This document shows positions 1,635-15,825 of a DNA stretch of 64,000 nt, one piece after another. The notes under the pieces were generated by a model, which was given only the letters and a program-made list of their open reading frames with translations, was not told the origin of the DNA and did no database searches. The number at the start of each line of letters is the position of its first letter. Position 1 is the first letter of the stretch. The position numbers and the translations under genes were made by a program. Origin of the DNA: Leucothrix pacifica (lineage in GTDB: Bacteria > Pseudomonadota > Gammaproteobacteria > Thiotrichales > Thiotrichaceae); contig NZ_QGKM01000015.1 in assembly GCF_003172875.1 (NCBI RefSeq), forward strand, positions 62,001 to 126,000, read 5' to 3'.

Positions 1635-2006
1635 ATGAATGGGGTGGATATGAGTATACCGTTAGCTAAAGTGTTGGATGCACTTAAAAGTGACTTGAAA
1701 AAAGCACAAAAAAACAGTGACCCTAAGAACCCATTGATAATCGAAGACATTGAGGTTGAGTTACAAACTGTAGTTACTTGGGGCGTTGACGGAAAAGGCG
1801 AAGCAACAGGTAAGGTTGATCTTAAAGTTTTGGACTTTTTAAAACTTGGTGAAGCGGAGGCAAAATTGAATGCCAACGGTAAGTGGGAAAAAGCTTCAAC
1901 ACAAAAAATAAAGTTGAAACTGTCGGCTGCCAGCTTGAATGAAGAAACGGGTAAATTAGAAAAAACACAAGTATCGGATACGACAGAAAATGAGCCTGAA
2001 ATCTGA
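1635..2006 (+). CDS. Trypco2-like (trypsin-co-occurring) small protein
   Basis: This protein of at most 123 residues fits the Trypsin-co-occurring domain 2 pattern. An N-terminal helix (IPLAKVLDALKSDLKKAQ) is followed by a beta strand with alternating acidic residues (IEDIEVELQTVV), then a strand-rich part ending in TQKIKLKLSA. Such proteins are encoded beside trypsin-like proteases in bacterial conflict systems and are thought to act as adaptors or cofactors; that role is inferred from the family. The second ATG at 1650 is the likelier start, because GGGGTGG lies just upstream of it. The gene overlaps the protease gene by 17 bases and opens a four-gene operon. It is AT-richer than the flanking housekeeping genes. 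Confidence 0.75.
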   Translation: MNGVDMSIPLAKVLDALKSDLKKAQKNSDPKNPLIIEDIEVELQTVVTWGVDGKGEATGKVDLKVLDFLKLGEAEAKLNANGKWEKASTQKIKLKLSAASLNEETGKLEKTQVSDTTENEPEI

Positions 2007-3429
2007 ACTGGTTGGTTTATTAGTAAGCCCCGTTAGTGGTGCTTTTGAAAAAGGTACGGCTTATCCTACACGCGATGGTGTTGCCATTACTGCTGCTCAT
2101 GTTATACCTGATATTCAGAACTACAATGAGAAGCAAGATAAAGTCAGTTACATCCTTTGGCCAACCGAAAAAGGCAATAAAAGCTTTATCCAGCGTATAT
2201 TGTTTCCTGTGACAGATGCAGATTTTGACTCTGGGCTAGATGTAGCAGTTATAGAGTGCAGTACTCCAGTAGATCTTAGTGCAGTAGTACTTTGTAAAAA
2301 TACACCTGACTACCCAGAGCTTTGGCATAGCTTTGGCTATCCACGGGCGGCAGAAAAGCCTGAGTTAGATAAACATCATCAAAAAGCTGCTGCTGGGAAC
2401 TATCTCTCAAAAGTTCACAATCAATCTTTTCAAGAGTTGGAAACCGAAAGCTTTGCAACTGATGATGTTTGGTGGAAAGGGATGTCAGGCGCACCCGTTT
2501 TCAAGGCGAATAGCAGTCACCTTACAGGGGTTTTTATTGAAGGCTCACCTGTTTATAAAAAAGAGGGAGAAGCCTCGCAACAAATTTTCAATGGATTATT
2601 GAAAGCTGCATCAATTGCCCATTTGTTGGATAACCCAAACTTTGCAGAAGCTGTTTACGGAAAAGAGTATTCAGAATATCAACAAGAGCATGAGAAAAAA
2701 CTACGCGATATTTGGGACGCTACACCAGCATTTAAAGCTAAACTCCCAAGTTGTGATGATGTCTTGGCTCAACTCAAAATAAACCCTGTTAAATGCATTC
2801 AAGATTTAAAGAAACAATGTAAAGGTCTTAACCTTGCTGAGTGTAAAAATGAAGTCGAGTCGCTCTTTTATTTACTTCTTAGCCAAGTTGATATGTCTTG
2901 CAGTTGGCAAGGAAAGCACTTCCACGAATTAGAAGTGAGTACACGCTTATTGGCAGAGTTGTCAGTTGCTAAGTTATATGGTGTCGAGCCTAAGTTTGAA
3001 CAGACGGATCAACTAGTGGGGCAGCACGTCATACCTGCATCACAAAAAGAACTTGGCTTTGACTTTGAAGACGCAGCAGAAGATCAAGCTAATAGCGTTG
3101 CTTATGCAATCTATAAAAAATGGGGTAACGAAGGTTTATCAAAAAACAGTCTGAAAAATTCTCCCCAGCACTATGACGAAGTCAATGAACAGTTATTATT
3201 ATCAAGAGAAGATGACGGTGCGGTCTATCGCTTTGAGTTAAACGAAAAAAGCGAGGAGGCTCAAAATCATGCCTTGATGGATGAAAAAGTCCGCAAGTAT
3301 ATCCATGAAAAGTTATTACCCGATTTGCCTATTGTCTTGTATGACCGATCACCAGAGTCAGTTTTCCCTGATGAAGGAAAGCTACAAACTCACGTACGCT
3401 CCTTTGTAAAACAAATTATCTTGGCTTGA
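1990..3429 (+). CDS. Trypsin-like serine protease with C-terminal helical extension
   Basis: The 479-residue protein starts with a chymotrypsin-fold protease domain (about 1-225). All three catalytic residues are visible: His37 in TAAHV, Asp84 in GLDVAVIE and Ser166 in GMSGAPVF. No signal peptide is present, so it should act in the cytoplasm. Residues from about 225 to 479 form a helical, charged extension that I do not recognise with certainty; in related conflict systems this part links the protease to regulatory partners. Its start overlaps the Trypco2-like gene, and its stop lies 3 bases before the MoxR ATPase, implying translational coupling. The protease is probably the effector of the system, cleaving a host or self protein once activated (inference). 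Confidence 0.85.
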   Translation: MSLKSELVGLLVSPVSGAFEKGTAYPTRDGVAITAAHVIPDIQNYNEKQDKVSYILWPTEKGNKSFIQRILFPVTDADFDSGLDVAVIECSTPVDLSAVVLCKNTPDYPELWHSFGYPRAAEKPELDKHHQKAAAGNYLSKVHNQSFQELETESFATDDVWWKGMSGAPVFKANSSHLTGVFIEGSPVYKKEGEASQQIFNGLLKAASIAHLLDNPNFAEAVYGKEYSEYQQEHEKKLRDIWDATPAFKAKLPSCDDVLAQLKINPVKCIQDLKKQCKGLNLAECKNEVESLFYLLLSQVDMSCSWQGKHFHELEVSTRLLAELSVAKLYGVEPKFEQTDQLVGQHVIPASQKELGFDFEDAAEDQANSVAYAIYKKWGNEGLSKNSLKNSPQHYDEVNEQLLLSREDDGAVYRFELNEKSEEAQNHALMDEKVRKYIHEKLLPDLPIVLYDRSPESVFPDEGKLQTHVRSFVKQIILA

Positions 3430-3432
3430 TTT

Positions 3433-4416
3433 ATGAGTAACTATTCCAAAGAAACTTTCGACCTAAAATACCCACACAAAGTAACTCTCGAACCAACAGG
3501 CTCGTGGACACAAAAACACTACTTACTAGACAAAAAATCCGCCTACGCGTTACAAATGGCACTCGCAACGAACCGTCCGCTGCTAGTAAAAGGCGAGCCG
3601 GGTTTAGGTAAAAGCTACCTTGCCTTAGCAGCTGCAGAATTACTAAACCGTGCTTTCATCGCTGAGGTAATAAACAGCCATACCGAAGGCCAAGAGTTAC
3701 TTTGGAAAGACGATCCAATCCAACGCCTAAGTGATGCTCAAGCAAAAATCAAAACAGGCGATGATTTACATCCAAAACGCTACATAAGCCCGAGTGTGCT
3801 GTGGTGGACATTTGATTGGGCTAACGCTGCAACACAATATGAACAATTGCATCATAAAGTTTATAAACCCGTCTGTGGGCATGCAAAAAACCGCAAAAAT
3901 GGACTTGTCGTATTAATCGACGAGATCGATAAAGCAGACCCATCATTGCCAAACAGTTTACTCGAAGTGCTAGGAAATAACGGTTTTGATGTTCCGCTGG
4001 CAAAAGTCAACGTCGGTCATCAAGGTATTGCGCCGCTTGTGATTATCACGACTAATGATGAACGTGAATTGCCGCCTGCATTTGTTCGTCGCTGCTTGGT
4101 TTTGCACTTAAAAATCCCTGATGGCACAAGCGATGATGGAAAAGATGAGTTAATCGAATGGCTAAAAGCACGTGTGCGTGTACATATCACGAAGGATCAG
4201 TGTAGCGATATTGTGCTGGATGAAGCCGCGAAACAGCTAAAAGAAGACCGGGAAAAAGCAGAAAGCCAAGGCATGATAAAAGCAGGACTTTCAGAGTATA
4301 TCGACTTGATTACCGCCTTAGTTGAAATGACTGAAGCAGGTGATAACCGAGAGACTGAACAACTCAAACTACTAGAAGAAATCAAGGAGTTCAGCCTACG
4401 TAAGGCGGATGCATGA
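3433..4416 (+). CDS. MoxR-type AAA+ ATPase
   Basis: The 327-residue protein is a single AAA+ module of the MoxR/dynein-like group. Walker A is GEPGLGKS (54-61) and Walker B is LVVLIDE (158-164). An arginine-finger-like segment, ELPPAFVRRCL, follows sensor 1. MoxR ATPases usually act with a von Willebrand A-domain partner to remodel or activate proteins. Here the next gene, which it overlaps by four bases (ATGA), supplies a vWA-like segment, so the pair probably forms the NTP-driven switch of the system. It follows the protease gene after only 3 bases. No clear Shine-Dalgarno sequence is needed if translation is coupled. Confidence 0.88.
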   Translation: MSNYSKETFDLKYPHKVTLEPTGSWTQKHYLLDKKSAYALQMALATNRPLLVKGEPGLGKSYLALAAAELLNRAFIAEVINSHTEGQELLWKDDPIQRLSDAQAKIKTGDDLHPKRYISPSVLWWTFDWANAATQYEQLHHKVYKPVCGHAKNRKNGLVVLIDEIDKADPSLPNSLLEVLGNNGFDVPLAKVNVGHQGIAPLVIITTNDERELPPAFVRRCLVLHLKIPDGTSDDGKDELIEWLKARVRVHITKDQCSDIVLDEAAKQLKEDREKAESQGMIKAGLSEYIDLITALVEMTEAGDNRETEQLKLLEEIKEFSLRKADA

Positions 4417-7253
4417 AGCTACAATCGCAAGTCAGTCGTGCGCAGTTATTAAGGGCTTGGAAAGAAAGCTCCGATGCTGAGTTGCGTGCTGACATCGCTG
4501 AGTTATTTGGTTACGAAGCATCTGAGAAATATCTGGGTGACTTGGATAAAGAGGATCATGAAGAGTCTCTGCCAAAAGAGAACGGGGGCGAAATCGACGA
4601 GCTAGCGCCCCTGCCATCTAAGAAATTAGACCCACCAAAACCCAGACCACAAGTCAGTTACTACTATTTAGCTGACCGTCAACGTTATGCAACCGAAGTT
4701 GAGGCTCAGCAAGAAACACCGCAAATATTTGATAGTGTAAAGACACTGAGTCGTGAAGAACTAAACAATTATTGGAAGTCTGAACCGCAAGATCCAACAG
4801 AGCCTGCACCGCTTACTCAAACAAGAACGCTGACGCCTTTTGTGCGTAAACAACTACGTCAAGCGGTAGGTCGTAATTTGGATGTGAAAACCTTGGTTAG
4901 ACAGGTTGCTAAACAAAGGCCACTAAAAGAATTACCCACACAACCGCGCTTACTACCAGCGGGTCGTGTAACGGTGATTGCTGACTTAAATGACCGCTTG
5001 CTGCCTTTTTGGGGTGACATACGTGATGCTTGTGAGTTGATTAAGCAAAAGCATGGAAAAATCGGCTTAGATATACGAGTGCTGGCAAGGGATGAAGCTG
5101 CGTGTGACTATTATGCTTATGACGACTGGGAGCAACGAAAACTCAAAACGCAGGCCTGGAAAAAGATACACGCTCAAAGCATGGTTTTCATTCTTAGTGA
5201 TTTAGGGCAATTAGCCGATCAAAGCAGTGTGATTCGTCGGCGTTGGTTACAGTTTGTTGTCACGTTAAACCGACGTGGAATCACACCTATTGTCTTGGCT
5301 CCAATCGCTGCTGCAAAACAGTGTCCAAAGCTACAAGCCAGAACACAGCTCATACTGTGGCAACGTTTCGGTCAACTCAACTCACGGCAAGTTCGTGGGG
5401 ATATCTCAAAACATCAAGAAAAAGTGGAGCGAGTACTCGCTTTTCTTTCCTTATCACCTCATATAGAACCAGAGCTATTACGTTCGCTGTGCGAGCTATT
5501 GGGAGCGCAAGAAGGGCAAAGTGGTATCGAAGCAGATGTCTACCTACACCCTGATGTGCAATGGGGTTATACGGCAATCACACTTCGAACAGAGAGACGT
5601 GAGCATTACCAAGCGCAGTTTGCAAAACAACCTCAAGCGCTTAAAAAGCAGGTACTGGATTGTATTGGTCAGCACCACGCTTCACAGTTTGCCTCTGTTT
5701 GGGCGGAGTCTATTTTAAATGCCGAAAAGCTGATGCAGGTTGATCAGGCAAGAGTGGATGAGGCTGAAGCACTCATGATGAGCTTGGCTAAAGGCTATAA
5801 CGAAGACCGTGACCATGACGGCATGATGCGCTTTGCCCGCCGTCATTTGTCACGTATGAGTGAGGCGCAGCTTGAAGACAAAAAGAGCAGCTACACTGCT
5901 GCTTTGTATTACTTGGCAAACCGTAAAGAGATAGATCAGGGGCACGCTGTTGAAAGTGAATACACGAACAAAACAGAAATCATTAACCAGTTAATGAAGC
6001 AGTCAGCACCAAAAAGGGAACTGGCTTTAAGGCAAGTTGGTTCTAAGTTATTTTTGGGTGATGAGGCCAAGCTCAAAGGTCAGTCGTTAACCGAGTTTAC
6101 AACGGTACAAAACAGCATTTTAGCGAATGGACAGAACACGCCCTTACTCGCAGGAAAGGCCGTGACGCTAGTTGGTGGCTCGAAGCACGAAGGCTTACTC
6201 GATAAGCTTCACCTAGACACGGGGCAAGAACACCTAATCATTCGTTCGTTGATAAAACCAAGTTGGGCAAGTGAAATCACTATGCGAGATGGTGTGCCTA
6301 TTACTGTACTGATTTTTGAAGGCAATTCGTATGAAATGCGTCCAGAGTGGCAAGATGAAAAGCTCAAGTGGCAGCCGGTAGAAGAGACTGAAAAGGTTGG
6401 TACTGATGAGTTTGGTTTGTTTGCAGAGTTTACTGTAAAAGGGGTGACGCAACGCCTTCGCTATATCGAGCCGACGACTTTTATGATGGGATCGCCTGAG
6501 AATGAAGATGGTCGTTACAACAACGAAGACTTGCATCAGGTCACGTTGTCCCAAGGCTATTGGTTAGCAGATACCGCTTGTACTCAAGAGTTATGGCAGA
6601 CAGTGACGGGTGACAATCCATCAGAGTTTAAAGATGACTCACAAAACCCTGTAGTGCAAGTGAGTTGGTTAGATACACAGCGTTTCATTCAACAGTTAAA
6701 ACAACTAACCCCGGAGCTTCTGGCTCATTTACCTACCGAGGCCCAGTGGGAGAATGCTTGCCGTGCAGGAACTGCGACGCCATTCTCTTTTGACGATGAT
6801 ATTAGCGTTGACCGCGTGAACTATCGTGATACATGGGAGCTAGAAAAAGAAGGTGAGGGTTTTAAGTGGGGCAAGGATGCTAAACAAAAAACGGCTCGCA
6901 TAAAGTCTTATGCCCCGAATGACTGGGGACTTTATGAAATGCATGGCAATGTATTTGAGTGGTGTTTTGATGAGTGGCAAGAAAATTTAGGTAATAGCTC
7001 GGTTATTGACCCCGTGACTGCTCGCTTTTCTAGCGCGGTAGCGCAAGAAAAACAGGCAGACAAAACAGGACAGTACGGTGGTTTCTACGATAGCGCTTTA
7101 TTAACTAATGCAGAAGAGGTTGGCGTGCAACGCGTGCTGCGTGGTGGCTCGTGGTACGGTCACGGCTGGAGCTGCCGCTCTGCTATCCGTTACCGGAACG
7201 ACGCGTCTAACCGCGTCAGGTTCTTCGGCTTCCGTATTGCTGTAGGTCTTTGA
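4413..7253 (+). CDS. vWA-like / FGE-sulfatase (CLec fold) protein, candidate DGR target
   Basis: The 946-residue protein has a charged N-terminal region (1-180). A Rossmann-like segment at about 183-345 begins VTVIADLND and is predicted to be a degenerate vWA domain: Asp191 is present but the usual DxSxS metal site is not intact. A helical middle follows. From about 684 to the end lies a formylglycine-generating-enzyme/sulfatase-modifying-factor domain of C-type-lectin fold (FMMGSPENEDGR, LPTEAQWENACRAGT, MHGNVFEWC, RVLRGGSW, GFRIAVG). In conflict systems this domain acts as a sensor for antigens rather than as an enzyme (family knowledge). Residues 907-946 have the codon pattern of a DGR variable region. 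The gene ends the four-gene operon and probably carries its recognition surface. Confidence 0.85.
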   Translation: MKLQSQVSRAQLLRAWKESSDAELRADIAELFGYEASEKYLGDLDKEDHEESLPKENGGEIDELAPLPSKKLDPPKPRPQVSYYYLADRQRYATEVEAQQETPQIFDSVKTLSREELNNYWKSEPQDPTEPAPLTQTRTLTPFVRKQLRQAVGRNLDVKTLVRQVAKQRPLKELPTQPRLLPAGRVTVIADLNDRLLPFWGDIRDACELIKQKHGKIGLDIRVLARDEAACDYYAYDDWEQRKLKTQAWKKIHAQSMVFILSDLGQLADQSSVIRRRWLQFVVTLNRRGITPIVLAPIAAAKQCPKLQARTQLILWQRFGQLNSRQVRGDISKHQEKVERVLAFLSLSPHIEPELLRSLCELLGAQEGQSGIEADVYLHPDVQWGYTAITLRTERREHYQAQFAKQPQALKKQVLDCIGQHHASQFASVWAESILNAEKLMQVDQARVDEAEALMMSLAKGYNEDRDHDGMMRFARRHLSRMSEAQLEDKKSSYTAALYYLANRKEIDQGHAVESEYTNKTEIINQLMKQSAPKRELALRQVGSKLFLGDEAKLKGQSLTEFTTVQNSILANGQNTPLLAGKAVTLVGGSKHEGLLDKLHLDTGQEHLIIRSLIKPSWASEITMRDGVPITVLIFEGNSYEMRPEWQDEKLKWQPVEETEKVGTDEFGLFAEFTVKGVTQRLRYIEPTTFMMGSPENEDGRYNNEDLHQVTLSQGYWLADTACTQELWQTVTGDNPSEFKDDSQNPVVQVSWLDTQRFIQQLKQLTPELLAHLPTEAQWENACRAGTATPFSFDDDISVDRVNYRDTWELEKEGEGFKWGKDAKQKTARIKSYAPNDWGLYEMHGNVFEWCFDEWQENLGNSSVIDPVTARFSSAVAQEKQADKTGQYGGFYDSALLTNAEEVGVQRVLRGGSWYGHGWSCRSAIRYRNDASNRVRFFGFRIAVGL
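7131..7253 (+). repeat. Candidate DGR variable region (VR) at the 3' end of the FGE gene
   Basis: Codons 914-940 contain TAC, GGT, CAC, AGC, ATC, TAC, AAC, GAC, AAC, GTC, TTC and TTC at positions that in DGR targets derive from AAC or AAT template codons by adenine mutagenesis. Eleven of these twelve end in C, unlike the A/T-ending codons in the rest of the gene. The fixed frame RVLRGGSW ... CRSA ... GFR is that of CLec-fold DGR targets. No template repeat or reverse transcriptase is in the window, so this rests on codon pattern and domain context. Confidence 0.65.
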
Positions 7254-7402
7254 GCTACCGAACAGGGCGGTTTTGCGTAGCAAGACAGCAACGGCAGTCG
7301 GTAGATGTAGCGAGCAGACAGAGCGAAACACAGCGCGTCGCGGAGCAGCGCAGGGTTTGGGTCAGGCTGGGAGAGGTCAGTTAATTTTTTTAATAGTGCT
7401 GA

Positions 7403-7567: not shown

Positions 7568-7831
7568 ATGCCAATATTTGAATACGATGAAGCAAAAAGT
7601 CAGATTAACTTTGACAAACACGGTATCAACTTTGTTGATGCTCAAGAGCTTTGGGAGGATGCAGCGTATATCGAGATTCAGGCAAATTCAGAAACAGAAC
7701 CACGTTTCCTGATTATCGGACGCATAAATGAAAAACATTGGTCTGCGGTAATCACCTATCGCGATGAATCCATTCGTATCATTTCTGTTCGTCGTTCAAG
7801 AAAGAAGGAGGTAAAACTATATGAAAGCTGA
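7568..7831 (+). CDS. brnT: BrnT family toxin (ribonuclease)
   Basis: The 87-residue protein matches BrnT toxins, small RelE-fold ribonucleases that block translation. The family pattern is visible: FEYDEAKSQINFDKHGINF at the N terminus, the central RFLIIGRINEKHWSAVITYR strand pair, and the basic end IRIISVRRSRKKE. It overlaps the downstream antitoxin gene by 11 bases, in the toxin-first order usual for brnTA. Mobile or accessory location beside the conflict operon fits a stabilisation role. The target RNA is not evident from sequence. Confidence 0.88.
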   Translation: MPIFEYDEAKSQINFDKHGINFVDAQELWEDAAYIEIQANSETEPRFLIIGRINEKHWSAVITYRDESIRIISVRRSRKKEVKLYES

Positions 7832-8060
7832 TGAGTTTGATAAAAAATTTGATGACGATGACGAAGACATAATCGATGACTTAAAACTGTCAACGATTCG
7901 ACGGCCTAATCTGGAACAAAAGCGCATCAATGTAGACTTTCCTAGCTGGGTAGTCGAGTCATTGGATCGTGAAGCGGCACGTATTGGTGTGACCAGACAG
8001 TCGATCATTAAAGTTTGGTTGGTAGAACGGTTGAAAGCAGAGGGCTCGGCAAGCTTTTGA
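7821..8060 (+). CDS. brnA: BrnA-like antitoxin (ribbon-helix-helix)
   Basis: The 79-residue protein has an acidic, disordered N terminus (about 1-30) expected to wrap the toxin. A ribbon-helix-helix DNA-binding domain follows: a strand RINVDFPSWVVESLDREAAR, then the helix with GVTRQSIIKVWLVERL. AGGAGG at 7805-7810 precedes the ATG at 7821. Together with BrnT it should repress the shared promoter and neutralise the toxin. The CopG-type fold is clear; the name brnA rests on its position after brnT. Confidence 0.8.
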   Translation: MKADEFDKKFDDDDEDIIDDLKLSTIRRPNLEQKRINVDFPSWVVESLDREAARIGVTRQSIIKVWLVERLKAEGSASF

Positions 8061-8079: not shown

Positions 8080-8830
8080 TTGGCTCGTCAAAGTAATACA
8101 CCAAAAATAAAAGCACTCCAAATCCCTCTCTACCACATGCGGGGCGGCACTTCGACCGGCGTCATTCTCAACAAACACGACCTTCCGGCTGATGAAGAGT
8201 CACACGACAATATACTGCGTAAAATCATGGGCGTCCCTGAGTCCGGCCACTCAGACCAAAGCCAGATCACTGGCTTAGGACGTGGTGCGCCAACCAGCAA
8301 CAAGCTATTTATCATCGAGGTAGTCGACAGAGAAAACCGCAAAGTAAATAGCACATTAGCACAGTTCGCCGCCGGTAAATCTGACATCGACTGGAGCGGC
8401 TCAGAAAGCTTTGGGTATTGGTTGGTCTGAAAATGAAACTGAAAAACCGTCAAGGTCATTTGATGTCTCAGTCAGAGCTTGAGCACAGCGAGACGATTCC
8501 CAAAATTTGCATGGTGTCACCAGCGACTCATGCGGGGGATATCAGCACTCGTTATTTTATGCCGCAAAAACCACATGGCTCATTGGCGGTATCAGGTGGC
8601 GGTTGTTTGGCAGCTGCGTGCACTTTAGAGGGCACGGTTGCATATAAACAGCTCGGTGATGTGGCTCGTTTGAAAGTTGCTGAAGGGCGCTATCAGGTCG
8701 CGATTGAGAACCCCGCAGGTGTGCTTGATATCGAGTTGTTGATGGGGGTGATCATATCGATAGCGTGAGATATACAAGAAATGCGCAGGTGCTTGTGAAA
8801 GGAGAATCGGTTATTTACAGTGGACTTTAG
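8080..8830 (+). pseudogene. Decayed prpF-family gene
   Basis: Three reading-frame pieces match PrpF-family (aconitate/oxalomesaconate isomerase-like) proteins. The first, 8080-8430, carries the family start MRGGTSTGVILN. The second, 8418-8768, holds the C-terminal half with VSPATH and the SGGGCLAAA stretch. The third, in another frame at about 8750-8830, continues SVRYTRNAQVLVKGESV and ends at TAG 8828-8830. A central portion of well over 100 residues is missing, and at least two frameshifts are present. An intact paralogue lies at 60392-61570. This copy cannot make a full protein. Confidence 0.8.
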
Positions 8831-8863: not shown

Positions 8864-9670
8864 GTGCTGCTTGTGAAAGTCGAAAATATAGATACTGATC
8901 TGGGCAATAAAATCCTTGAAGACCTCAAGCAACAAGGCTGGAAGCTAGGCGCTCAGTACAGCCCGCTGGCATTCGACAAGGGCATCGATTTCGATAGTTA
9001 CACACTCAAAAAAGATCAATCAAAACTGTATCTGGAATGGACTAATTGGTTTGAATGGGAAATCCACGGCAGCAAGCAAGACCTCGATCAACTCGCTGAG
9101 AAGTATGAATTGGCAAAAATCGTCCCGAGCGATTTAGTTAAAAAATGGTTCGGTGATCAATTCACCAAGCTCCACCCATTACTCCAGAAACTGCACACAG
9201 ATGGTGGCACGCTCACGGGCGATGTGGATATTCATTACGGCAAAGGGTTGGCCGGTGTAATTGGTCGTAGACTGGCTAAGAAAATGAAGCTGCCAGAAGC
9301 GGGTACGCACCAGCTTGCGGTGACGATTTCGCATGATAGTGCAGGCTTGCATTGGGGGCGTTGTTTTAACCAGTATTCCTATATCGAGTCGCTGTTTGAG
9401 CCGGTGGGTGTTATCACTCATGGCTATTGGATTGAGGCCACCGGCCCGTTAACCATGAAGTTGACGGTAGATGTCAAAGACGGCGGTTGGTATTGGCGGT
9501 GTTTGAGTATTCGTTTTATGGGGCTGCCGGTGCCGCGCTGGCTGGTGCCTAAGACGACTGCATACAAGGTAATCGAGGATGACCAGTACCGTTTTCACGT
9601 TGAATTTTCATTGCCTATGCTGGGCTCTTTAGTGCGTTATCAAGGTTTACTCAGCGCCCAAAGTGACTAA
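8864..9670 (+). CDS. DUF4166 domain protein
   Basis: The 268-residue protein has an N-terminal alpha/beta part (about 1-90) and a C-terminal DUF4166 domain (about 100-265), seen in the TLTGDVDIHYGKGLAGVIGRRLAKKMKLP and WRCLSIRFMGLPVPRWLVP segments (each only partly quoted as motifs TGDVDIHYGKG and GLPVPRWLVP). The molecular role of DUF4166 is unknown; it is sometimes found with oxidoreductases. The start is a GTG at 8864, with a second GTG nine bases later as an alternative. No signal peptide is visible. The next gene, a molybdoenzyme, begins 41 bases later, so the two may be cotranscribed. Confidence 0.75.
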   Translation: MLLVKVENIDTDLGNKILEDLKQQGWKLGAQYSPLAFDKGIDFDSYTLKKDQSKLYLEWTNWFEWEIHGSKQDLDQLAEKYELAKIVPSDLVKKWFGDQFTKLHPLLQKLHTDGGTLTGDVDIHYGKGLAGVIGRRLAKKMKLPEAGTHQLAVTISHDSAGLHWGRCFNQYSYIESLFEPVGVITHGYWIEATGPLTMKLTVDVKDGGWYWRCLSIRFMGLPVPRWLVPKTTAYKVIEDDQYRFHVEFSLPMLGSLVRYQGLLSAQSD

Positions 9671-9711: not shown

Positions 9712-11994
9712 ATGGCCGATGCCAAGCGAAAGACACGTGTTACCTCAAGTCACTGGGGTGCGTTTAAAGTCATTACCGAGGGTGATGCGATTGTGGCTGT
9801 CGAGCCGTTTAGTGCGGACCCAAACCCTAGCGCGATTTCTGAAATATTACCGGCTGCTGTTCATCATGATAGCCGTATCAAACGTCCATCGATTCGCCGT
9901 GGTTGGTTGGAAAGTCGTAACCGTGACAAGCGGGGAGAAGATGAGTTTGTTGAGTTGCCGTGGGATGAGGCTTTAGATATTGGCGCTGCTGAGCTTGATC
10001 GGGTGCGCAAAGAGCACGGCAACGAAGCGATTTACGCCGGCTCTTACGGGTGGGGCTCAGCGGGGCGTTTTCATCATGCACAAAGTCAGGTACATCGTTT
10101 TTTAAATACGGCGGGCGGTTATGTGTCGTCTTTTGGGAGTTACTCAACCGGTTGCGCGCAGTCGATTATGCCACATGTGTTTGGTATGCCGTTTTTGAAA
10201 TTCACCTATGGCTCGCAGGATAGTTGGGAAACCATTGCAGCGCACACCGAAACATTGGTGATGTTTGGCGGGATTAATCCCAAGAATTCACAGGTCAGTA
10301 TGGGTGGAATTACTGAGCATGAAACCGCGGATCGTTTTAAGCAATTCGCCGCCTCGGGAATGCGCCGGATCAACATCGGCCCGCAGCGAACTGATGCGCC
10401 TGAGGGTTGTGAGTGGCTGCCGGTTAAACCGGCGACTGACACTGCATTGATGTTGGCATTGGCTTATGTCATCGAAACGGAAGGCTATACCGATGAGGCG
10501 TTTCTTGCTGAGTTTACGACAGGCTTTGAGCGTTTCAAACCGTATCTGTTAGGTACGAGTGATGGTCAGCCAAAGTCGCCGGAATGGGCCAGTGCGATCT
10601 GTGGTGTGAGTGCGGATGAAATATCTGAACTAGCGCGGTATATGGCGACGACGCGTACGCTGATTACCGTGTCATGGTCGTTGCAACGTGGCGAGCACGG
10701 CGAGCAACCGTATTGGATGGCGGCAACATTGGCATCGATGTTGGGGCAGATTGGGCTGGCCGGCGGCGGCATTGGTTTTGGTTATGGGGCGATTGGTGGC
10801 ATCGGCAAGCCGTTAAAGCATTTACTGGGGATGACCTTGCCGCAAGGGGTGAATCCTGTGAAGACGTTTATTCCGGTGGCGCGTGTTGCTGACATGCTAC
10901 TCAATCCGGGTGTGGATTACGATTTCAATGGTAAGCGAGAACCTTATCCGGATATCAAACTGGTTTACTGGTGTGGCGGTAATCCCTTCCATCATCATCA
11001 GGATTTAAATCGTTTACATGAGGCCTGGAAACAGCCGGAGACGGTGATTGTGCATGAGCCGTGGTGGACAGCGACGGCTAGACGTGCGGATATTGTGTTT
11101 CCTGCAACCACACCGTATGAGCGTGAAGATATCGGTTTATCCAAAATAGACGACTACCTGTTTAATATGCCGCAGTTGATTCCGGCGCAGCATGAGGCAC
11201 GTGATGATTATGAGATTTTTGCGGGTCTGGCTGAGAGAATGGGCATAGGGGATGCTTTTACGGAAGGACGGAGTGCTGAGCAGTGGTTACGTCATCTTTA
11301 TGCAGATTTTCATGATAATGCAGTGAAAGGGGGTGTCTATATTCCAGACTTTGATGGCTTGCGTGAGCAAAACTGGTTGAAACTGCCTATCCGTAGTTTG
11401 GAATATGAAAAGCCATTTTTAAGAAACTATCGTGAAAATCCGCAGACCTCGCCACTGCCAACACCATCAGGAAAGATTGAAATCTTCTCTGAAACCATCG
11501 AAGGGTTTAATTATGACGATTGTGCGGGGCACGCGATCTGGTTACCGCCTCAGGATTGGTTAGGGGCTGCGACTGAGGCAATGCCTCTGCATATGATCTC
11601 ACCGCAACCGGGTGATAAGCTGCATAGTCAATTAGAGTGTGCGCTGGCAGATGTTGAAGGTGCTCGTCCTGAAACTCTGATTATGCATCCCACGAATGCA
11701 CAGCAACGTGGACTGCAAACGGGTGACATTGTCAAAGTACATAATGAGCGTGGAAGTTGTCGCGCGCGTTTACGTGTGTCGGAGGATATTGTCGAGGATG
11801 TCGTGGCGCTACCAACAGGCGTTTGGTTTAGTGATACCCACAAACATGCAAAGGGCGGACAAACTGATGGCCATTCCAAAGGGCTGGATGAGCACGGTAA
11901 TCCCAATGTGCTAACGCGTGATGTGGGTACTTCTCGCTTGGGGCAAGGTTCCAGTGCACATACGGCCTTGGTGGAGGTGTCAGCACTGCTTTAA
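9712..11994 (+). CDS. Molybdopterin oxidoreductase of the biotin sulfoxide / TMAO reductase group
   Basis: The 760-residue protein is a DMSO-reductase-family enzyme that uses a bis-MGD molybdenum cofactor. The motif GSYSTGC places the expected molybdenum-ligand serine at about residue 149. The segments VMFGGINPKNSQ, WCGGNPFHHHQDLN and HEPWWTATARRADIVFP line the cofactor in this group. There is no twin-arginine signal and no N-terminal iron-sulfur cysteine set, so a cytoplasmic BisC-like enzyme is likelier than a periplasmic TorA. It would reduce biotin sulfoxide, methionine sulfoxide or a similar S- or N-oxide. Cytoplasmic BisC of E. coli is of similar length. Confidence 0.85.
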   Translation: MADAKRKTRVTSSHWGAFKVITEGDAIVAVEPFSADPNPSAISEILPAAVHHDSRIKRPSIRRGWLESRNRDKRGEDEFVELPWDEALDIGAAELDRVRKEHGNEAIYAGSYGWGSAGRFHHAQSQVHRFLNTAGGYVSSFGSYSTGCAQSIMPHVFGMPFLKFTYGSQDSWETIAAHTETLVMFGGINPKNSQVSMGGITEHETADRFKQFAASGMRRINIGPQRTDAPEGCEWLPVKPATDTALMLALAYVIETEGYTDEAFLAEFTTGFERFKPYLLGTSDGQPKSPEWASAICGVSADEISELARYMATTRTLITVSWSLQRGEHGEQPYWMAATLASMLGQIGLAGGGIGFGYGAIGGIGKPLKHLLGMTLPQGVNPVKTFIPVARVADMLLNPGVDYDFNGKREPYPDIKLVYWCGGNPFHHHQDLNRLHEAWKQPETVIVHEPWWTATARRADIVFPATTPYEREDIGLSKIDDYLFNMPQLIPAQHEARDDYEIFAGLAERMGIGDAFTEGRSAEQWLRHLYADFHDNAVKGGVYIPDFDGLREQNWLKLPIRSLEYEKPFLRNYRENPQTSPLPTPSGKIEIFSETIEGFNYDDCAGHAIWLPPQDWLGAATEAMPLHMISPQPGDKLHSQLECALADVEGARPETLIMHPTNAQQRGLQTGDIVKVHNERGSCRARLRVSEDIVEDVVALPTGVWFSDTHKHAKGGQTDGHSKGLDEHGNPNVLTRDVGTSRLGQGSSAHTALVEVSALL

Positions 11995-14586: not shown

Positions 14587-15825
14587 TTAACGCTGCCCAC
14601 CGTAAGTGTGGCTGTGTTGGTTGGCGCCGTTCGGATGTGTGTGTGTCACCGAGTTCGTCAAATTGTTCGCAGGGTGTCTGTGAGTATTGGCAGAATTCTG
14701 TGATACCTGTGCTGTTACCGCCTGGCGTGGAGGAAGCAAGAAGTCATGTACGTGTACGCCTGCACCACCAGCATGGGTATGCTGAGTTTGCTTGTTGTAA
14801 GGCGAAGAAGGATGAATGTGAGTCACTAACTGAGTGCCTGTGTTCACTACCTGACGTTGTTGCTGTACTTGTTGTGCCTGACGCTGCCCACCGTAGTTAT
14901 GGCTATGCTGTGCACTACCGCTGGCGTGTGTATGCGTCACTGCGTTAGTGAACTGGTTACGTGGATGCGTATGTGTGTTTGCATTGGTCTGTGTGACAGC
15001 GCGAACCTGAACTTGAGGCTGCTGTACCTGACGCTGTCCACCGTAGTTGTGCTTGTGCTGTGAACTGCCACTTGCGTGAGTATGAGTCACGGCATTAGTG
15101 AACTGGTTACGTGGATGCGTGTGCGTGTTTGCATTGGTCTGTGTAGCAGCACGAACCTGAACTTGTGGACGTGGCTGTTGAGTAGCCTGTCCCTGACAGC
15201 TGTAACGGTGTGTATGTTGATTGGCACCGTTTGGATGCGTGTGTGAAACCGAGCGTGTGCAAGGGTTAGCAGGGTGAGTATGTGTGTTGGCGGTATTGGC
15301 AGGACGTTGCTGAACAACCTGAGTAGGTCGCTGCTTCGTTGTAATTGCCGGCATGCCGTTACCCGGTCCAACATATACGCTGCGAACAGTCCCTGTACCG
15401 GCATCATAGATATCACCAGTACGCTGAGTAACCTGAGTGCTGTAGTTCGGGGTGTTGATGTAAGTCTGAGTGGTCGTCGTTTGTGTTGCAACCGGTGCTG
15501 GCGGCGTATAAGTGTAATCAGTCGCAAGGTAGCGCTTGTTGATCCAGCCGTTAACACCATTCCAGTTTATTTTAATCCAGGTAGAGCGACCAGTCTGTAC
15601 TTGCTCGCCATCGCTGTTGATTCCACTACCGTTCGATGGGATTTCACCAATGATCGTACTTCTGGCATTTGGCTCAGAACGAATATTCAATGTATCCCAG
15701 CTTTCTACACCCGATACGATATAACGCTCAGAGGCTGCAGTCGCTTGATTCATCGCCGCGACACTAATGCAAAGAGCAATACCAGAGACAGACGCTGCCT
15801 GTTTCAGTCGATTAAATACATTCAT
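14587..15825 (-). CDS. Exported SH3b protein with five His-rich repeats
   Basis: The 412-residue protein has a signal peptide (about 1-30, cleavage after TAA or ATA), an SH3b domain at about 34-102 (TLNIRSEPNARSTIIGEIP ... NGWINKRYL) and a Thr/Gln-rich linker. Residues 180-412 hold five repeats of the pattern THxHPxxxxxxxxxHTHxxGxxxHxH, each with three HxH pairs: 30 histidines in all. The second and third units are near-identical over 50 residues. The repeats suggest binding of zinc, copper or nickel in the periplasm or at the surface; that is inference. I know of no characterised protein with this layout. Confidence 0.75.
   Translation of the reverse strand: MNVFNRLKQAASVSGIALCISVAAMNQATAASERYIVSGVESWDTLNIRSEPNARSTIIGEIPSNGSGINSDGEQVQTGRSTWIKINWNGVNGWINKRYLATDYTYTPPAPVATQTTTTQTYINTPNYSTQVTQRTGDIYDAGTGTVRSVYVGPGNGMPAITTKQRPTQVVQQRPANTANTHTHPANPCTRSVSHTHPNGANQHTHRYSCQGQATQQPRPQVQVRAATQTNANTHTHPRNQFTNAVTHTHASGSSQHKHNYGGQRQVQQPQVQVRAVTQTNANTHTHPRNQFTNAVTHTHASGSAQHSHNYGGQRQAQQVQQQRQVVNTGTQLVTHIHPSSPYNKQTQHTHAGGAGVHVHDFLLPPRQAVTAQVSQNSANTHRHPANNLTNSVTHTHPNGANQHSHTYGGQR
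14879..15178 (-). repeat. Tandem duplication of a 150-base unit in the His-repeat gene
   Basis: The segments 14879-15028 and 15029-15178 encode the 50-residue stretch from PQVQVRA to GGQRQ with few changes. They share long identical runs, for example GTGAACTGGTTACGTGGATG and GCATTGGTCTGTGT. The other three units are more diverged, so this looks like a recent internal duplication. Confidence 0.75.

Follow-up and report, generated by a model that had tools for sequence, protein, structure and literature searches.

A probable orphan DGR variable region in a MoxR-type conflict operon of Leucothrix pacifica

One gene of L. pacifica ends in a loop whose codons resemble those of a DGR variable region (VR), raising the question of whether a DGR made the loop and, if so, whether anything still rewrites it. 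We approached this question in the 64-kb stretch of DNA that contains the gene (the window), in the rest of the L. pacifica assembly (5.0 Mb in 146 contigs, listed as 100% complete), and in 63 genomes of the family, L. pacifica included, with one genome per species; the order-level set consists of the same 63 genomes.

The target gene and its operon

The gene (4413..7253, + strand) encodes a DGR-type target of 946 amino acids with a long N-terminal region and a C-terminal FGE/CLec domain, and is homologous to the target linked to a reverse transcriptase (RT) in the relative G052. An earlier reading made from the sequence only had placed the VR at 7131-7253, a position and frame that are correct and correspond to the 3′ end of this open reading frame. 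It had also assigned an FGE/CLec fold to the C-terminus, in agreement with the FGE-sulfatase match (PF03781, E = 4.2e-32) that spans residues 686-943 (6468..7241, + strand). By sequence, profile and fold, TvpA (2y3c), a DGR variable protein of Treponema denticola, is the best solved relative of this domain and also the best PDB match. DGR targets have this arrangement, in which an FGE/CLec domain forms the C-terminus and the gene closes with the VR. Because the AlphaFold model of the full-length target has pLDDT values below 50 across most of the VR, we claim no surface positions for VR residues. In the N-terminal region, the part encoded by 4818-5400 alternates between strands and helices in the same model. 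Compared with solved structures, the model weakly matched the MoxR-vWA pair of the NorQD complex (NorD; Foldseek, E = 0.008), which may point to a degenerate vWA domain in the target; Pfam detected no vWA domain in 25 target homologues, and the VMAP domain was likewise undetected.

Three genes on the same strand precede the target. They encode a Trypco2 (trypsin-co-occurring domain 2) adapter (1635..2006; PF19631, E = 6e-12, over the cut-off), a trypsin-like peptidase that is the probable effector (1990..3429; PF13365, Trypsin_2, E = 7.8e-10, with no other Pfam domain), and a MoxR-type AAA ATPase (3433..4416; PF07728, E = 1.3e-10). The H, D, and S motifs of the peptidase (TAAHV, DVAVI, and GMSGAP) are all present, and the ATPase retains Walker A (GEPGLGKS) and Walker B (VVLIDE). 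RT, HRDC gene, and template copy are all absent from the 64 kb, as had been noted for the RT and the template repeat from the sequence. Directly 3′ of the VR, where relatives carry an HRDC-RT-template cassette, the window has, at 7568-8060, a BrnT toxin gene followed by a probable BrnA-like antitoxin gene, the latter assigned from its position and by reading. Further along are two overlapping open reading frames (8080-8768), which may be a single PrpF-type gene interrupted by a frame break, and, on the - strand (14587-15825), a gene for a protein rich in His-Thr-His-Pro repeats that possibly binds metal.

Codon pattern of the loop and RT-bearing relatives

The core of the VR (7140..7235, + strand) extends from RGGSW to GFR and is recognized by its C-ending codons and by its adenine-site changes relative to the templates of relatives. 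Its codons are TAC GGT CAC GGC TGG AGC TGC CGC TCT GCT ATC CGT TAC CGG AAC GAC GCG TCT AAC CGC GTC AGG TTC TTC, of which 15 of 24 end in C; any other stretch of 24 codons in the gene has at most 11 (mean 3.9), and the frequency of C at third positions upstream of the VR is 0.16. This C-rich run, the strongest in the gene, is confined within the VR edges. Ten positions of the loop correspond to AAC codons in the G052 template. The window has a C-ending codon at eight of these, where its amino acids and the codon usage of the gene itself predict 3.3 (P = 0.0019); the two others (GGT and AGG) are not NNC. Taken alone, this P value (0.002) is modest.

The codon pattern described from the sequence is thus borne out, although its details changed. 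The original count of 11 of 12 codons, all said to be derivable from AAC, reflects a real excess of C-ending codons in a hand-picked subset, and two of these codons are not AAC-derived because the templates of relatives have ATC at the ATC codon and GAG or GAT opposite GAC. Overlooked in that count were TGG and CGG, both of which are AGG in the two templates (G046 and G052) and changed at A alone, as adenine mutagenesis would produce.

A counterpart of the locus is found in G052, which has the identical four-gene order (Trypco2, trypsin, MoxR, target) followed by an HRDC gene, a DGR RT, an adenine-rich template, and a short FGE gene; a contig of G046 similarly runs from the end of a target through HRDC, RT, and template to a short target. 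The window contains the four-gene operon and lacks the HRDC-RT-template cassette. The closest full-length relative of the target (L194, 42% identity) has the start of an HRDC gene right after it, at the contig edge. Frame breaks occur in two relatives: the short target of G052 (L177:8735-9598) goes out of frame at the VR, and the long target of G007 is frameshifted just upstream of it (L186, around 6085-6099).

In the codon test, the VRs adjoining an RT in G046 and G052 have 8 to 10 C-ending codons at the ten template-AAC sites, whereas pattern-less paralogous FGE loops, including two on contig C68 of the L. pacifica genome, have 0 to 4. The window loop groups with the VRs, away from the pattern-less loops. 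Set against the templates of G046 and G052, it is changed at 15 of 26 adenines and at 15-16 of the 70 remaining positions, which speaks for a DGR origin; the Fisher test of these changes (P about 0.001) we dropped as evidence for a VR, being non-specific: some FGE loops without the NNC pattern pass it too. VRs beside their own template mostly show 0-2 non-adenine mismatches, whereas the best template anywhere for the window VR gives 15 of 70. At 7243..7248 (+ strand), the window has the 3′ junction in its VR-type form, TAGGTC: the VRs of G046 and G052 read TAGGTC as well, and their templates read TAGCTC. This motif may act as an initiation site. A weak stem-loop (TTTTGC-GTA-GCAAGA; 7271..7285, + strand) follows and is not counted as support; the folding z-score of this stretch of the window is -0.55. 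In some relatives, a GC-rich stem of 5 bp occupies this place. For the DGR origin of the loop, most weight lies with the homologous RT-bearing loci, more than with the codon statistic of the window.

Search for a mutator

The L. pacifica genome contains four RVT_1 genes, on contigs C57, C68, C75, and C80, of which only the last is of DGR type. The other three were rejected as DGR RTs since they lack the motif that reads IGNLTSQ in the C80 enzyme and IGSLTSQ in the DGR RTs of relatives (the corresponding sequences are QGAILSP in C57 and QGGPLSP in C68). The C80 DGR is complete and of the bAvd type, with RT, Avd (over the NCBIfam cut-off), template, and two FGE targets. It occupies L018:5440-13140, and its targets, of 935 and 1009 amino acids, lie on opposite strands and have N-termini that are TIR-like and NTPase-like by reading. 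Its template agrees with both of its own VRs at 66 of 66 non-adenine sites and mismatches the window VR at 29 of 66, and on this count we rejected trans action of this DGR on the window.

A search with the adenine-degenerate pattern of the window VR, allowing up to 3 mismatches, returned only the self-match across the L. pacifica genome and the 62 other family genomes, and a single exact pattern of the VR gave no match in a viral contig collection. Short BLAST matches elsewhere in the L. pacifica genome (14-22 bases) were rejected as templates, being in apparently unrelated sequence; the match on C68 is an FGE paralogue. RTs of the HRDC clade, taken as those that share roughly 50% identity or more with the G052 RT, are absent from the seven Leucothrix genomes of the set, L. 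pacifica included, and are found in other genera of the family. Hypermutation in trans, as proposed from the sequence, is therefore unsupported: the sole DGR-type RT of the genome has a template that does not fit, and no compatible one was found. The sequence-only reading had suggested looking elsewhere in the genome for a template beside a DGR RT and avd gene, and would have given up its proposal if the genome had no RT or template and strain differences were spread evenly over codon positions. Half of the genomic part applies: an RT/Avd locus exists, on C80, and no template fitting the window VR was found in the assembly.

The state of the window VR recurs in other VRs of the family. In L. 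pacifica itself, three VR-type loops on C88 (L181:8557-8652 and 10519-10614) and C141 (L183:7551-7646) have 10 of 10 C-ending codons at the template-AAC sites, and no template was found for them. A target of G003 (same genus, two contigs) scores 7 of 10 in a genome with zero RVT_1 genes. VRs of G030 and G059, each assembled as a single contig, score 10 of 10, and each genome has one RT; these RTs, like those of G007, G009, and G044, were rejected as DGR RTs since the motif reads QGAPTSP. Both G030 VRs (L188:7190-7285 and 9469-9564) match the G052 template at 70 of 70 non-adenine sites. More generally, the VRs of G030 and G007 (L186:7648-7743), in genomes with no DGR-type RT, match the templates of G052 and G097 at every non-adenine site.

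Origin and present state of the loop

We consider it likely that 7131-7253 is a donor-less DGR VR, orphaned and probably frozen, in a clade 5A-like MoxR conflict operon. In the ancestor, an HRDC accessory gene, a DGR RT, and an adenine-rich template would have acted on the target, and its loop codons would have been rewritten as NNC. Because the cassette is absent, the loop would today be a binding surface that is passed on by inheritance and probably frozen, connected to an ATPase and a protease with intact motifs. If the scheme of Dore et al. applies, the target would sense a ligand and signal via MoxR to the peptidase. We infer that mutagenic homing took place in the past, that the cassette was lost (as opposed to the target having arrived by itself), that the loop is immobile at present, and that the target senses a ligand and activates the protease; it would probably be a sensor of immune type, with a binding surface that was randomised at one time and has since been frozen.

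Since the assembly is in 146 contigs, a cassette could be hidden on a plasmid or in an assembly gap, where a fitting template and RT would still be rewriting the VR in the living strain. Such trans activity has already been proposed for Thiohalocapsa DGR 4 and 5 (PMC10907252), and the fairly sharp VR pattern (8 of 10) would agree with it. We nevertheless regard it as improbable, given that no fitting template occurs in the assembly or the family genomes, that the sole DGR of the genome has an unrelated template, and that HRDC-type RTs are missing from all seven genomes of the genus in the set, among which G003, in two contigs, has not a single RVT_1 gene. It is less probable still that the loop was never a VR and that an ordinary FGE domain acquired its C-ending codons through local codon bias or chance. 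The modest P value and the pattern-free paralogues on C68 are compatible with this explanation, whereas the link of the same target family to RT and template in relatives, the halt of the C-rich run (the strongest in the gene) at the VR edges, the AGG to TGG and CGG changes, and the VR-type TAGGTC junction argue against it.

If the loop is an orphan VR, as we prefer, its cassette may have been lost by recombination: long and short targets, acting as direct repeats that flank HRDC-RT-template, would have recombined, excised the cassette, and left a mosaic target. Consistent with this route, the FGE domain of the window is long-type until about TPFSFDDDI and then short-type (a gain of 35 nats), and the gene ends immediately after the VR, as do several short targets. 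The same switch, at 37 nats, is present in G046 with its cassette intact, so the mosaic is not diagnostic of excision and was rejected as proof of it; we hold this route, though attractive, to be doubtful. With similar reserve, we suggest that RT-less VRs could be a recurrent and retained state in the family, in which sensors are diversified as long as a cassette is present and are then locked by its loss, becoming fixed receptors on a live protease.

If a randomised sensor surface outlives its mutator, it becomes a fixed receptor, for which a ligand could be looked for while the surface no longer varies, and a comparison of RT-bearing with RT-less relatives would reveal how selection treats receptors made by DGRs. 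The codon signature of a VR alone does not prove that diversification continues today, even where the genome carries a complete DGR.

Several known systems resemble the locus in part. In clade 5A DGR loci of multicellular bacteria (Dore et al. 2024, PMC10907252), MoxR precedes a target whose N-terminal extension is uncharacterised, and the layout includes genes for adapters and peptidases as well as long and short targets. In DGR 8 of Thiohalocapsa PB-PSB1, which belongs to this clade, MoxR lies directly upstream of an N-terminally extended CLec target, with Trypco2 and a trypsin-like peptidase nearby, and DGR 9 has a similar layout (PMC10907252). The window shares MoxR upstream of a CLec target and the adjoining adapter and peptidase genes but has no linked clade 5A RT, template, or short second target; its likeness to clade 5A is one of gene layout. 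VMAP ternary conflict systems (Kaur et al. 2020, PMC7159879) similarly combine MoxR with Trypco and trypsin partners and an FGS domain, whereas vWA and VMAP domains are undetected by Pfam in the window operon. The C80 DGR also has multidomain targets whose C-termini are FGE-fold VRs, together with RT, Avd, and a template that, as described above, does not fit the window VR. The T. denticola TvpA system shares the type of FGE domain, an HRDC accessory gene (described for the T. denticola DGR and present in the intact relatives of the window), and targets that outlast RT and template, remnant targets persisting without them in T. denticola isolates (PMC4891356). It differs in that the window target belongs to a MoxR-peptidase operon, in a genome that also has an unrelated complete DGR. 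Disrupted DGR loci have been reported in Thiohalocapsa as well, along with one target in which no variation was observed (PMC10907252). Given these T. denticola remnants and Thiohalocapsa cases, the orphan VR described here is a new instance of a known phenomenon.
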